DNA of 25,265 bases from a virus. Under the pieces are notes generated by a model. The model was not told where the DNA came from. It saw only the letters and a program-made list of their open reading frames with translations, and made no database searches. Positions 11,011 through 23,113 of this stretch are shown piece by piece. The position numbers were made by a program, and so were the translations under genes. The stretch covers positions 1 to 25,265 of IMG/VR virus record IMGVR_UViG_3300023174_006811; one strand, written 5' to 3'. The stretch's first letter is position 1. Each line of letters starts with the position of its first letter.

Positions 11011-11018
11011 CATAAATA
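11011..11018 (+). promoter_or_regulatory. Candidate late promoter box (CATAAATA) for phoH
   Basis: CATAAATA matches the T4 late consensus at 7 of 8 positions. Initiation a few bases downstream would place the transcript start at about 11023-11025, exactly where the folded leader (11024-11080) begins. The agreement of the two signals raises confidence in both. Confidence 0.6.
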
Positions 11019-11023
11019 AATTT

Positions 11024-11080
11024 GTAGGACCTCTGTAGTTATCGGGGCGGTCACTACAAGTCCTACTTCCCCAAGTAGGA
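11024..11080 (+). promoter_or_regulatory. Candidate RNA switch in the phoH leader (RBS-sequestering hairpin versus upstream stem)
   Basis: Two structures compete for the same strand. In one, GTAGGAC (11024-11030) pairs with GTCCTAC (11060-11066), closing over an inner stem TGTAGT/ACTACA (11034-11039 with 11053-11058) and a 13-base loop. In the other, TCCTACTT (11061-11068) pairs with AAGTAGGA (11073-11080) over a CCCC loop, burying the AGGAG that lies 7 bases before the ATG. The GGGG of the first loop (11044-11047) can also pair with CCCC (11069-11072), giving an H-type pseudoknot. The pairings are read directly; switching and any ligand are inference. I recognise no known riboswitch class. 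Confidence 0.6.
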
Positions 11081-11088
11081 GATACTAG

Positions 11089-11805
11089 ATGAGTAGAAGA
11101 GTGAAAAAACGCTTTGCTTCAAACGTAAATGTAATTGATTTTGCAGCTTATAATCCGCAAAAAAAACAGCGAGTAGGCCTTTATCCTCGCAGTGAAAGCC
11201 AAAAAGTCTACATACAAAAGCTACAAGACGACGCTAATAGTATTTTATTTGCCATAGGGCCAGCAGGCACCGGTAAAACTCTATTGGCTGTTCAAGCTGG
11301 AGTAAAGATGTTTCAAGAAGGCAAGGTAGATAAACTCATAGTAACTAGACCCGCCGTAAGTGTAGATGAAGACTTAGGATTTTTGCCTGGTGACTTAAAT
11401 GAAAAGATGGCACCATGGACCAGACCTATTTTTGATGTATTAGGAGAATATTATCAACAGAAAGACATCGCAGAAATGTTAAGTGAGGGCATTATTGAAA
11501 TAAGCCCATTGGCCTATATGAGAGGACGTACTTTTAAGAATTCCTGGATTATTGCTGATGAAATGCAAAATGCCACAACCAATCAAATGAAAATGCTCTT
11601 AACACGTTTAGGAGAAAATTCACGTATGATTGTAACAGGAGACTTGGCCCAAGCAGATAGACTTCAAGACAATGGTTTAATTGACTTTTGCAACCTACTA
11701 GGAAAGCATAAAAAATTAGAACACATTGATATTGTTCATTTTACCCAAAAGGATATTGAACGACATCAAGCAGTAAAGGAGGTCCTTTCCATTTACGGAG
11801 ATTAA
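11089..11805 (+). CDS. phoH: PhoH-like P-loop ATPase
   Basis: The 238 residues match the PhoH ATPase domain throughout: Walker A GPAGTGKT (57-64), VTRPAVSVDEDLGFLPGD (about 85-102), Walker B IIADEMQ (154-160) and the sensor-like VTGDLAQ. It lacks the PIN or KH extensions of some cellular relatives. phoH is very common in aquatic phages; its role, possibly RNA-linked, is unsettled despite the phosphate-starvation name. It is the only plus-strand gene here, with its own late-type promoter and a structured leader. It ends convergently with the DUF2452-like gene; the two stops share TTAA at 11802-11805. Confidence 0.95.
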   Translation: MSRRVKKRFASNVNVIDFAAYNPQKKQRVGLYPRSESQKVYIQKLQDDANSILFAIGPAGTGKTLLAVQAGVKMFQEGKVDKLIVTRPAVSVDEDLGFLPGDLNEKMAPWTRPIFDVLGEYYQQKDIAEMLSEGIIEISPLAYMRGRTFKNSWIIADEMQNATTNQMKMLLTRLGENSRMIVTGDLAQADRLQDNGLIDFCNLLGKHKKLEHIDIVHFTQKDIERHQAVKEVLSIYGD

Positions 11806-18791: not shown

Positions 18792-20567
18792 TTAAACTCT
18801 TTTAATTCTTGGTCTGGGCCACATTTGGCCTTCAGTTGGTCTGAGTCTAGTATTTTCTTTAGGATACACATTGCCAGTAACTGTTCTTTCTAATTGGCAA
18901 TATAAATATCGGTTGGGAGCATTACCTAACGAGTAGTAACTGCCTTGGTATTGCTCTGCATTTCCAGTCTGTGTTAATTGATCAGATTTAGAAAATGTTG
19001 AATTTAAAAAAGCCAATGCTTCTGATTGAGTTAAGTCTGGGTATACTTCTAGTAAACAAGCTAAAATTCCAGTTACTTGTGGGCAGGCCATACTGGTTCC
19101 GCTCATTAAAATTTTGTAGTAGCTGGAATTACGAGGATCCCTTACGCCACTACTGCTAGTATTAGCACTACTGGCTATATTACTTCCCGGAGCAAAAATG
19201 TCTACTCTTGGGCCTAAATTACTAAAATTTGATTTTCTTGGCGCTACTGTAGTATCGACAGAACCTACACTGATACATCCTTCCGCAGTGCTTATGCCGC
19301 CTCTTCTTGGGTAATAAGTAGTTGAGTTGGACATAACAATATAATCATTATAATGATCAGTATCGGTTCCTGAATAATTTTCCATAATGGAATATTCATT
19401 ACCAGCAGCAACTACTACTATAACTCCGGCATTGATCAAGTCTATTATATCAGCTTCCATTGGACTATAACGTGTGGGAAAGTATATCCCCCAATTTCCA
19501 TTAACCTGAGCAACAAACATGCCAGTTCCAGTAAGAGCACCACCAGTTTTACTGCTAGGATAAGCAAAATCTACAGCATTCCAAGTGCTAGTATAGTAAA
19601 CGTTTCCGGCATATCTTAAAGAAGTAATAGCACCGGCTACACTAGTTGTTGCACCAAGAACTGCTTGAGTTGGAGTAATGCTTATACTCATGTTAACAAT
19701 AGTAGGATTTTTACGTCCGGTATTAGGATTAACAGGTTTGTTAAGATGAAACTCTTTTACATAGTTAAGTATATTATTGGTATTAGGCGCAGGGCTATTA
19801 CCGCTTGTTCCATAAGGATCGATACAATAGATATTGGCATCTCTAGCCCAGCCGCAGGTATTTCCTGCTGCTATACCAGCTACATTTGCTCCATGATCCC
19901 CCGATGGGCTAGAGGAATATGTATAGGTGCCTGTTGCTCCACCAGTAACATTAGGGTTATGTTGAAACCAATTATATTCTACAACTCTACTACCGCCACT
20001 GCCATCCGAGTTAACAGCAGCTTCTGGGTGCGCAGTTTTAAAGTGATCGTCAACAATGACCACATCTACATTCTTACCGGATGCTGTGGTTGTAACAGTC
20101 CCAGAAACTACCTTAGGTACTAGTATGCCTCCGTCTGTGCCCCAATTGCCATCGTCAGTACCATCGGTACATCTTTTTAATGCCCAGTTTAAGCTGGCGG
20201 AAACTATGCTTGAGTTTTTACTCCAGGCAGTAGATGTTTGTACCCAATTAGGTACTATTTTTAAACCAGCTTCTTCTAGAGTTAGAGTTACAGCTAACAC
20301 TCTAGGATCGTTTTTAATTTGTTCTGCTTCTTCTGCTGTGAGCCTATAACTGGTATTTCTGCTATTAGGCATTCTTTGTTCTACTGCCACAGCACGATCT
20401 GGAACATGTTCAGGACCGCCTAAATTTTCCATATCCTGATAAAATACATCAAGATTGTCATAATCGTGCAGAGTGATTATGTATTCTTGTCTTCCATGCT
20501 CGTCAGGTTGTTTGGGTTCGTCAGGAAGTAAATGGTTTGGTAGGTCTAAGGTTAATAACTGTTCCAT
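18792..20567 (-). CDS. Subtilisin-family (S8) serine protease in the fibre region
   Basis: The 591 residues carry the full catalytic set: Asp in VVIVDDHF (D173), His in SGDHGANVAG (H225), oxyanion Asn in VVVAAGNE (N390) and Ser in MSGTSMACPQVTG (S492). Residues 28-97 (YIITLHDYDNLDVFYQDMEN, then YRLTAEEAEQIKNDPRV) look like an inhibitor I9-type propeptide, suggesting autoprocessing. There is no signal peptide, so action in the virion or in the cytoplasm is more likely than secretion. The C-terminus carries a short extension (RTVTGNVYPKENTRLRPTEG). It directly follows the collagen-like gene (TAATG overlap at 20565-20569) and precedes structural genes, so it may be virion-mounted or mature fibres. 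Active-site assignment is secure; role is inference. Confidence 0.9.
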   Translation of the reverse strand: MEQLLTLDLPNHLLPDEPKQPDEHGRQEYIITLHDYDNLDVFYQDMENLGGPEHVPDRAVAVEQRMPNSRNTSYRLTAEEAEQIKNDPRVLAVTLTLEEAGLKIVPNWVQTSTAWSKNSSIVSASLNWALKRCTDGTDDGNWGTDGGILVPKVVSGTVTTTASGKNVDVVIVDDHFKTAHPEAAVNSDGSGGSRVVEYNWFQHNPNVTGGATGTYTYSSSPSGDHGANVAGIAAGNTCGWARDANIYCIDPYGTSGNSPAPNTNNILNYVKEFHLNKPVNPNTGRKNPTIVNMSISITPTQAVLGATTSVAGAITSLRYAGNVYYTSTWNAVDFAYPSSKTGGALTGTGMFVAQVNGNWGIYFPTRYSPMEADIIDLINAGVIVVVAAGNEYSIMENYSGTDTDHYNDYIVMSNSTTYYPRRGGISTAEGCISVGSVDTTVAPRKSNFSNLGPRVDIFAPGSNIASSANTSSSGVRDPRNSSYYKILMSGTSMACPQVTGILACLLEVYPDLTQSEALAFLNSTFSKSDQLTQTGNAEQYQGSYYSLGNAPNRYLYCQLERTVTGNVYPKENTRLRPTEGQMWPRPRIKRV

Positions 20568-21379
20568 TATACTTCTAATTGTAATAAGGTTAATGTTACA
20601 GTAATAGCAGCAGTACTACCACTATTATTGGTTACTCTAGCATAGATTGTAGTTCCAGGTGTGCCATCGTTGTTAAATCCTACGACTGCTGGTGTAATTA
20701 GTTGTGTTTGAGCACCAGTAGTAACTACTTCGGCAATTACGCCAGCACCAGCTAATGGATCGGAAGTTTGTGACCTGCCATTATCACTAGTTCTGGTAGT
20801 GTTATCAGTGTATAATCTTACCCATGCTGCCGCAGAAGTTTGCACTTTGTATAGTGCATAACCTTTAAATCCTGTAATATTAAGATCTGTACTGGCGCCA
20901 TTGGCAATAGAACTTGTAGTAGCGTTCGTGGTAGTCCTTGATCCTAGTCCTGTGCCACCACCGCCTCCGCCACCTGCTGGGCCTTGTACACCTTGGCTAC
21001 CTGCTCCTTGTACACCTTGAATACCTTGTCCGCCAACTGTACCTTGCACTCCAATGCCTTGAGCACCTTGAATACCTTGTGTGCCTTGACGGCCTTGGGA
21101 GCCTGTTGCTCCGTCTGCTCCTGGAGCAGCCTGTGTGCCTTGTATACCTTGGGTACCTTGACGACCTTGGCTACCTTGAGCAGCCTGTGTACCTTGAATA
21201 CCTTGACGACCTTGTGGACCTTGTGTACCTTGAGTACCTTGGCGTCCTTGTGGGCCTTGCGACCCGTCGGCTGCTTGAGTTCCTTGACGACCTTGTACAC
21301 CCTGTACTCCTTGACGACCTGTAATGCCCTGCGTACCTTGAGTACCTTGGCGGCCTTGTATTCCTTGAATATCTGCCAT
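20567..21379 (-). CDS. Collagen-like tail fibre protein
   Basis: Residues 5-146 are almost pure G-x-y triplets rich in Q, T, R and I (GRQGTQGTQGI, GPQGRQGIQG), a collagen-like shaft that should form a triple helix. A few interruptions (QAADGSQG, QAAPGADGATG) may be flexible points. The last 120 residues form a beta-rich globular domain (LNITGFKGYALYKVQTSAAA, TPGTTIYARVTNNSGSTAAI), a probable receptor-binding or trimerising tip. AGGA precedes the ATG and a perfect late box lies 19 bases upstream (21398-21405). Collagen-like fibres are known in phages. Other-frame frames through the repeats are artefacts. Confidence 0.88.
   Translation of the reverse strand: MADIQGIQGRQGTQGTQGITGRQGVQGVQGRQGTQAADGSQGPQGRQGTQGTQGPQGRQGIQGTQAAQGSQGRQGTQGIQGTQAAPGADGATGSQGRQGTQGIQGAQGIGVQGTVGGQGIQGVQGAGSQGVQGPAGGGGGGGTGLGSRTTTNATTSSIANGASTDLNITGFKGYALYKVQTSAAAWVRLYTDNTTRTSDNGRSQTSDPLAGAGVIAEVVTTGAQTQLITPAVVGFNNDGTPGTTIYARVTNNSGSTAAITVTLTLLQLEV
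20945..21366 (-). repeat. Collagen-type triplet repeat DNA
   Basis: The DNA is a tandem array of related 9- and 18-base units (on the plus strand ACCTTG and its variants with GAATACCTTG, GACGACCTTG) encoding the G-x-y shaft of the collagen-like fibre. Units differ mainly at synonymous or R/I/V/T positions, and it is a likely place for length change by slippage or recombination. Confidence 0.85.
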
Positions 21380-21721: not shown

Positions 21722-23113
21722 TTATGGTGTTACGACAATCATTTCGCCAGTTGTTGGGTTCCAAGCTACTTGATAGAATCCAGTAGGTATTGAGCCGCCA
21801 GTTACTTGGCGTAGTGACTGAACTACTAGTGTACCTGATCCAACACTTTTTAGTTCGCTTCCAGTGGCATTGATTACAATACTGTTAGCGTGTTGAGTAT
21901 ATCGAGCAGCATAGGCACCAATTGCAATAGCATTAGCTCCTTGTCTTCCTCGAACAACGAATTGACCTCCAGCAGATATAGGACCGTTATTGGGTAGAGT
22001 TGAAACTGTAAGGGTATTAGTTCCATAGTTTACAGCAGTGATATATGTATCGGCGCCATTACCGTAGCCGTTATTGAAAATCACCATACCAACTTGAACT
22101 TGACTAGCATCAGTGACTGTTATTAGATAATCTGATCCGTCGCCTACAGGATCGGTAGCATAAACATATATGTCGTCTTCTGTGCCTTGGGCAGCTTCCT
22201 GACCAATAGCAATAGCATTTTGTTGTTGTTCATTAAGACCAGCGTGACGTCCAATGGCCACAGCATAATCTTCCTGATTATAACGACCAGCCAATGCTCC
22301 AATAGCTACTGCTTGATCACCTTGACTATCATCACCGGCCCAACGTCCAATAGCAATAGCACGGAATCCTTGATCGTAGTTACCAGCTTCTTCACCAATG
22401 GCCACTGCGGCTGTGCCTTGGTCTTGATAGCCTGCTTCGTATCCAACAGCAACAGCGTGTTGTCCTTGATAGTCATTACCAGAGTAAGCACCGACGGCCA
22501 CTGCTTCGTAACCTTGATCTTGATAACCTGCTCCACTGCCAATAGCAACAGAAGTAGTGCCTTGATTGTCATTGCCTGCTCGATTACCAATAGCAACGGC
22601 ACTATATGATTGTTGGTTATTTCCTGCTTCAGCACCAATTGCTATGGCATGATAACGTTGATGATAGTTGCCAGCATAATATCCAATTGCAATAACTTCA
22701 TTACTTTGATCTTGTGCGCCAGCATAGCGTCCAATAGCAATAGAACTTCTACCTTGATCACTTTCGCCGGCACTACGCCCAATAGCAACGGCACTTCGAT
22801 CCTGGTTCTCATAACCAGCTTGATGGCCTATTGCTATTGTGGCTGTTGATTGACCAATTCCAGCCTCAGTTCCAATAGCAATGGAATTTGTGTCGCCTTC
22901 CGCAGTGGTGTCAGCACCTATGGCAATTTGCCCATCTGGTCCAATCCCAACTCCGCCGCTTGCGTAGTCCAAATCTGGCCAATGTGTTGAACCATCACCA
23001 ATTTTAAATTTATTAGTGTCAGTTTCAAAACCTGGTTCACCCTGTGCCAATACCACATTGGAATTAGTCCAGTTAAGGGCTGTATCTCTTCTTAATTGAA
23101 TCTTGCTGGTCAT
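21722..23113 (-). CDS. Fibre/adhesin with IQLRRD N-terminal domain and YadA-like head repeats
   Basis: Residues 1-51 (KIQLRRDTALNWTNSNVVLA, GEPGFETDTNKFKIGDG) are the N-terminal phage-fibre attachment domain also present in the next gene upstream. Residues about 62-309 are tandem 16-residue repeats of the type AIGxxAGxxxQxxxAV, the left-handed beta-roll of YadA/Hia trimeric adhesin heads. After the repeats comes a different beta-domain (about 312-463) with GTLVVQSLRQVTGGSIPTGF, ending VAWNPTTGEMIVVTP, a common fibre end module. No secretion signal is present, so this is a virion fibre, not an autotransporter. It probably binds the host surface as a trimer. Confidence 0.85.
   Translation of the reverse strand: MTSKIQLRRDTALNWTNSNVVLAQGEPGFETDTNKFKIGDGSTHWPDLDYASGGVGIGPDGQIAIGADTTAEGDTNSIAIGTEAGIGQSTATIAIGHQAGYENQDRSAVAIGRSAGESDQGRSSIAIGRYAGAQDQSNEVIAIGYYAGNYHQRYHAIAIGAEAGNNQQSYSAVAIGNRAGNDNQGTTSVAIGSGAGYQDQGYEAVAVGAYSGNDYQGQHAVAVGYEAGYQDQGTAAVAIGEEAGNYDQGFRAIAIGRWAGDDSQGDQAVAIGALAGRYNQEDYAVAIGRHAGLNEQQQNAIAIGQEAAQGTEDDIYVYATDPVGDGSDYLITVTDASQVQVGMVIFNNGYGNGADTYITAVNYGTNTLTVSTLPNNGPISAGGQFVVRGRQGANAIAIGAYAARYTQHANSIVINATGSELKSVGSGTLVVQSLRQVTGGSIPTGFYQVAWNPTTGEMIVVTP
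22187..22930 (-). repeat. 48-base repeat array encoding YadA-like head (about 14-15 units)
   Basis: Units of 48 bases code for the 16-residue repeat AIGxxAGxxxQxxxAV. The IG and AG positions are nearly fixed and the positions between them vary (HQAGYENQ, RSAGESDQ, RYAGAQDQ, YYAGNYHQ). DNA between units is diverged enough to be ancient, but the constant spacing could still allow unit gain or loss. Confidence 0.85.

Follow-up and report, generated by a model that had tools for sequence, protein, structure and literature searches.

In the phage DNA analyzed here, the late mRNA of phoH opens with a stretch of ~58 nt that probably acts as a two-state translational control leader. The likeliest controlling factor would be a protein, PhoH being the leading candidate. 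The leader lies in a 25-kb IMG/VR virus fragment (25,265 nt, hereafter the window), and its architecture is common to at least 98 distinct phoH leaders from uncultivated phages. Literature searches turned up no account of an RNA element in the phoH leader, which appears to be a structured RNA new to the literature. Few genes are as common in marine and freshwater phages as phoH, which serves as a marker gene, and we know of no established role for it in infection. A leader that adjusts phoH alone would offer a handle here, as the factor that flips it would reveal what PhoH responds to.

Within the window, phoH is the only large gene on the plus strand, the other genes being encoded on the minus strand. 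Its product matches PF02562 (E = 5e-75) and is probably an RNA helicase. The minus strand also encodes two highly repetitive proteins (20567-21379 and 21722-23113), one collagen-like with QGxQG repeats and the other with AIGxxAG repeats, which are probably tail-fibre/adhesin proteins. The leader element spans 11024-11081, and its features are as follows.

11011-11018, plus strand: T4-type late promoter box CATAAATA, at positions -13 to -6
11024, plus strand: predicted transcription start (+1) from the -13/-6 geometry, the first base of P1
11024-11030, plus strand: P1 5' arm, GTAGGAC; Shine-Dalgarno (SD)-like, competing with the genuine SD for pairing to the shared strand
11034-11039, plus strand: P2 5' arm, TGTAGT (from the alignment, RNAalifold)
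11040-11052, plus strand: conserved apical region of P2, with a U40/C52 mismatch, the cap, and a variable loop ending in GGC
11041-11043 with 11049-11051, plus strand: P2 cap, 3 bp, AUC/GGU
11053-11058, plus strand: P2 3' arm, ACTACA (from the alignment, RNAalifold)
11060-11066, plus strand: P1 3' arm, GTCCTAC; the shared (anti-SD) strand, pairing in P1 or in P3
11061-11068, plus strand: P3 5' arm, TCCTACTT, overlapping the P1 3' arm
11067-11068, plus strand: P3 extension, TT; outside P1 and conserved
11073-11080, plus strand: P3 3' arm, AAGTAGGA, holding most of the SD
11075-11081, plus strand: phoH SD, GTAGGAG, read in the sequence
11089-11805, plus strand: phoH, 238 aa
11023-11031 with 11049-11058, plus strand: P1', the alternative helix of the OFF fold, with A11053 bulged; present in the minimum free energy fold

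P1 and P3 are mutually exclusive since one strand is common to both, and P3 hides the SD. The original prediction had already described two exclusive folds, one of them covering the phoH SD, and the segments on which it built are present where it placed them (GTAGGA at 11024-11029, TCCTACTT at 11061-11068, and AAGTAGGA at 11073-11080). It missed P2 with its cap, and also the second partner that the 5' arm has within P2. The apical region of P2 is a candidate recognition site, and the TT extension of P3 could possibly act as a toehold.

Whether P1 can form in the late transcript depends on where that transcript begins. T4 late promoter boxes occupy positions -13 to -6 (PMC1524935). With the box in this position, +1 falls on 11024, the first base of P1, which would bring the entire 5' arm into the mRNA. 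A late-type box just upstream of the first stem was rightly noted before, and a start downstream of 11030, named at the time as the finding that would undo the reading, is disfavored by the T4 geometry, from which the start at 11024 is predicted. Among the relatives, the spacing from TAAATA to P1 is 5 nt in 89 of 97 and 4 nt in the other eight; at 205 other late promoters, the sixth position beyond TAAATA holds a purine in 74%.

The element was followed through viral contigs along two routes. A search with the PhoH protein yielded 80 loci (76-99% identity), and every one of these with a complete leader carries the element directly after a TAAATA-type box. A second search, independent of phoH, used the core pattern GTAGTNATCN{1,5}GCGGTCRCTAC and returned at least 119 viral stretches, at least 113 of which have a PhoH match downstream (tblastn). 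The remaining listed stretches are five contig ends showing only the start of phoH and one contig (L107) that ends at the motif; among the matches listed, the pattern thus occurs in viral contigs only before phoH. When 74 long loci (785 kb) were searched with a covariance model of the element, each gave a single copy, in the sense orientation. Element-bearing contigs are as long as 345-383 kb (L108, L028, and L022), and jumbo phages are therefore among the carriers. Nor is this a general feature of late leaders, an option we rejected because the other late leaders of the same loci are short (median 30 nt) and without excess structure (z -0.34), versus ~75 nt and z -3.3 for the phoH leaders. 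A few other late leaders (in L044, L040, and L007) do have strong GGGC..GCCC hairpins with T runs behind them; these resemble terminators overlapping the TAAATA context. As a separate observation on the gene itself, the phage PhoH of L142 (reverse strand), L278, and possibly L208 contains an intein-like insert; in L142 it sits after AYMRGR, and the close relative L186 is without it.

Taken alone, the sequence of the window is only moderately unusual, its fold beating shuffled versions with z = -1.76 (9 of 200 shuffles were as good), and the evidence beyond chance is therefore comparative. In an alignment of 22 diverse leaders chosen from the 98 distinct ones, RNAalifold, unaided, returns P1, P2, and the cap. 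P1 is paired in 99.3% of cells, with both-sided changes at three pairs (U-A to C-G, G-C to A-U, and A-U to G-C). P2 with its cap is paired in 97.4% of cells, with both-sided changes at one P2 pair, and the cap stays paired through changes from U-G to C-G and from C-G to U-G. For P3 the figure is 93.8%, with both-sided changes at two pairs (U-A to A-U in each case) that lie beyond the strand it has in common with P1. All 98 leaders retain the first pair of the P3 extension (93 T-A, 5 A-T), and 97 retain the second. P1' is paired in 95.9% of cells with zero both-sided changes, which is weaker evidence, since sequence identity constrains it.

Because the relatives are not independent, we also used a tree test, in which the substitutions inferred for each column were re-placed randomly on the branches of the phoH gene tree. 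P1 has one unpaired cell versus 8.3 expected (p = 0.022). The P3 extension likewise has one versus 17.1 expected, with none of 500 simulations as low; its pairs accumulated 27 substitutions and a single break. For P2, two unpaired cells are observed versus 9.6 expected (p = 0.10, with few changes), the helix being too invariant to give a significant result, and the P3 core is uninformative since the SD is constrained anyway. Covariation among related leaders had been proposed as a check, and the comparative evidence backs P1 as well as the part of P3 that lies beyond the shared strand. On the shared strand, 41 of 42 substitutions are wobble-neutral, and the last (in L072) is compensated in P1. 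G-U cells far outnumber A-C cells (50 versus 1 in P1; 61 versus 1 in the P3 core), so that the selected molecule is the sense RNA; a minus-strand function, which these wobble pairs would not suit, was rejected. We also dismissed a terminator role, having found no terminator. At the level of sequence comparison, P1 and P2 are conserved, and P3 is under selection outside the shared strand, which bears out the two exclusive folds.

One further pairing was proposed earlier, namely an H-type pseudoknot between GGGG (11044-11047) and CCCC (11069-11072). Both runs are present and could pair in the window; the CCCC run occurs in the P3 loop of only 13 of the 98 leaders, about two thirds of which do not even have two adjacent C in that loop. 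With its partner missing in most relatives, the pseudoknot was rejected.

Energetically, the two folds are closely matched in the models. In the window at 37 C, the ensemble with P1 enforced has -23.5 kcal/mol and that with P3 enforced -22.6 kcal/mol. The ON/OFF difference is ~1 kcal/mol in the window, with a median of 1 kcal/mol in the 98 leaders (5-95% about -3.9 to +4.1). The folds would therefore be nearly isoenergetic, with nearest-neighbor energies too imprecise to pick the winner in the cell. In growing-transcript predictions, every one of the 98 leaders has all but finished forming P1 by the time its SD is transcribed, after which P1 and P3 compete; at the predicted equilibria, P3 dominates in 67% of leaders and P1 in 33%.

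From these data we infer a folding order, a switch, and a trigger. The 5'-terminal hairpin of P1 and P2 would form first on the nascent RNA and occupy the anti-SD strand, so that the SD stays accessible (ON). After transcription of the SD region, P3 could capture the anti-SD strand, beginning at the extension of two to four pairs beyond P1; in the resulting OFF state, the 5' arm would re-pair within P2, and the SD would be hidden. Given the near-equal energies, a factor that stabilizes P1/P2 or opens P3 could set phoH output. The confinement of the element to phoH (among the matches listed) and to a single group of phages favors a protein, from the phage or its host, over a metabolite. PhoH, acting in feedback control, is the best candidate, given that ATP-dependent RNA helicases, some of them sequence-specific, are known in its family (PMC7390352, PMC7824862). 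Binding of PhoH to its own leader is put forward here purely as a hypothesis. The mycobacterial PhoH2 preference AC[A/U][A/U][G/C] matches ACUAC in P2, and we did not use this as evidence since about 38 relatives have GCUAC and the motif is frequent by chance. A more specific version, which we offer tentatively, is that a ring-forming PhoH works on its own leader and shifts the isoenergetic folds by way of the SD mimic at +1 and the toehold. If true, such a helicase-gated switch would amount to self-timed control of a near-ubiquitous phage gene. The strand-exchange design (SD mimic, shared anti-SD strand, and toehold) is clean and testable.

The main rival needs no trigger at all. The P1/P2 hairpin might shield the mRNA from 5'-end-dependent decay, with P3 as a fixed or kinetic brake that lowers or times translation. 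That almost every leader has P1 beginning right at the predicted +1, and that P1 is predicted to form before the SD exists, would suit such a role, as would the distant phoH leaders (discussed below) that retain a +1 hairpin without a clear SD hairpin. The apical sequence of P2 (TATC..GGCGGTC), however, is far more conserved than protection requires, and the shared strand is constrained toward both of its pairing partners; all in all, we think this explanation somewhat improbable, though a serious competitor. Quite unlikely in our view is a small-molecule riboswitch, with P2 as the aptamer and P1/P3 as the expression platform. Like translational riboswitches with SD-sequestering platforms, the phoH leader has helices that exclude each other, with the SD hidden in one of them, and an apical region that is conserved and mostly unpaired. 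Unlike them, it has no Rfam match, no known ligand, and a single gene in a single phage group: covariance models of 4227 Rfam families gave zero matches at the gathering score, and the best low-threshold match on the leader had E = 4.1. A known riboswitch or other Rfam class was thus rejected, and the original prediction, which recognized no known class, holds in this respect. Control of several genes of one pathway, usual for riboswitches if not obligatory, is not what we find; with the element before phoH only among the matches listed, a multi-gene metabolite riboswitch is unsupported. Moreover, 84,980 prokaryote genomes gave only three matches to the core pattern, all of them without flanking arms and attributable to chance, and other phoH clades put different loop sequences on the same scaffold. 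Least probable by a wide distance is an RNA thermosensor. The SD does sit in a potentially meltable hairpin, but P3 is long, and SD exposure computed at 10, 20, and 37 C is nearly constant (0.59 at 10 C to 0.54 at 37 C in the window; median 0.21 to 0.27), as the two folds lose stability in parallel. Of the translational riboswitch or thermosensor first proposed, the conserved leader with exclusive helices and a hidden SD stands, and the thermosensing is unsupported.

Returning to protein-mediated control, the closest precedents come from phage T4, in which no riboswitch has been functionally characterized according to PMC3014915. Inhibitory leader hairpins are described for T4 genes e, soc, 49, and I-TevI; like phoH, these are late genes whose SD is buried in a helix of the mRNA, close to a TATAAATA late promoter (PMC3014915). 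There, the late promoter lies inside the 5' strand of the helix, so that late transcripts do not contain that strand and are translated (PMC3014915). In the phoH leader, on the other hand, the promoter is upstream, the late transcript contains the entire SD-hiding hairpin (P3, 11061-11080, versus a predicted start at 11024), and a second fold competes with it. The autoregulatory leaders of T4 genes 32 and 43 are likewise structured, precede a single gene for a nucleic-acid enzyme, and are phage-specific (PMC3014915), and autoregulation is also the model that we favor for phoH. The gene 32 leader combines a pseudoknot with an unstructured AU-rich site, and that of gene 43 is a simple hairpin (PMC3014915), whereas the phoH leader has two exclusive helices sharing one strand, no conserved H-type pseudoknot, and protein binding that is hypothetical.

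In more distant phoH loci, the late box persists, and a hairpin again begins at +1. For 40 distant representatives, 5' arms score better with their own partners than when swapped (15.4 versus 12.85, SD 0.36; 0 of 5000). The match between shared strand and SD gives a different picture, as their own SDs pair no better than swapped ones (494 of 5000); an earlier SD-swap test that included clade members had given 5 of 2000. A universal SD switch across T4-like phoH genes was hence rejected, and the switch may be confined to the clade of the window. Judged from these comparisons, the +1 hairpin seems to be an old and widespread feature, the SD-hiding exchange being clearly supported only in that clade. 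Weak hits of the element model also fall on phoH leaders in a number of marine loci (L312, L353, L246, L237, and others). Distant phoH leaders from marine T4-like phages and from relatives of Pseudomonas phage PA5oct (L237, L246, and L083) share the late box and the +1 hairpin with that of the window, but have other loop sequences and weak or absent SD pairing. In L083 (Pseudomonas phage Deifobo, PA5oct-like; around 1300-1345), phoH is again isolated on the opposite strand, close to the clamp loader, and its leader has a late box followed at the usual +1 spacing by a hairpin that has no SD-hiding partner. This phage is a cultivated system suited to testing the +1 hairpin. The phoH leaders of L262 and L256 carry a proximal hairpin, GCAGG-GGGA-CCTGC, which we take to resemble helix 45 of 16S rRNA, possibly by coincidence.
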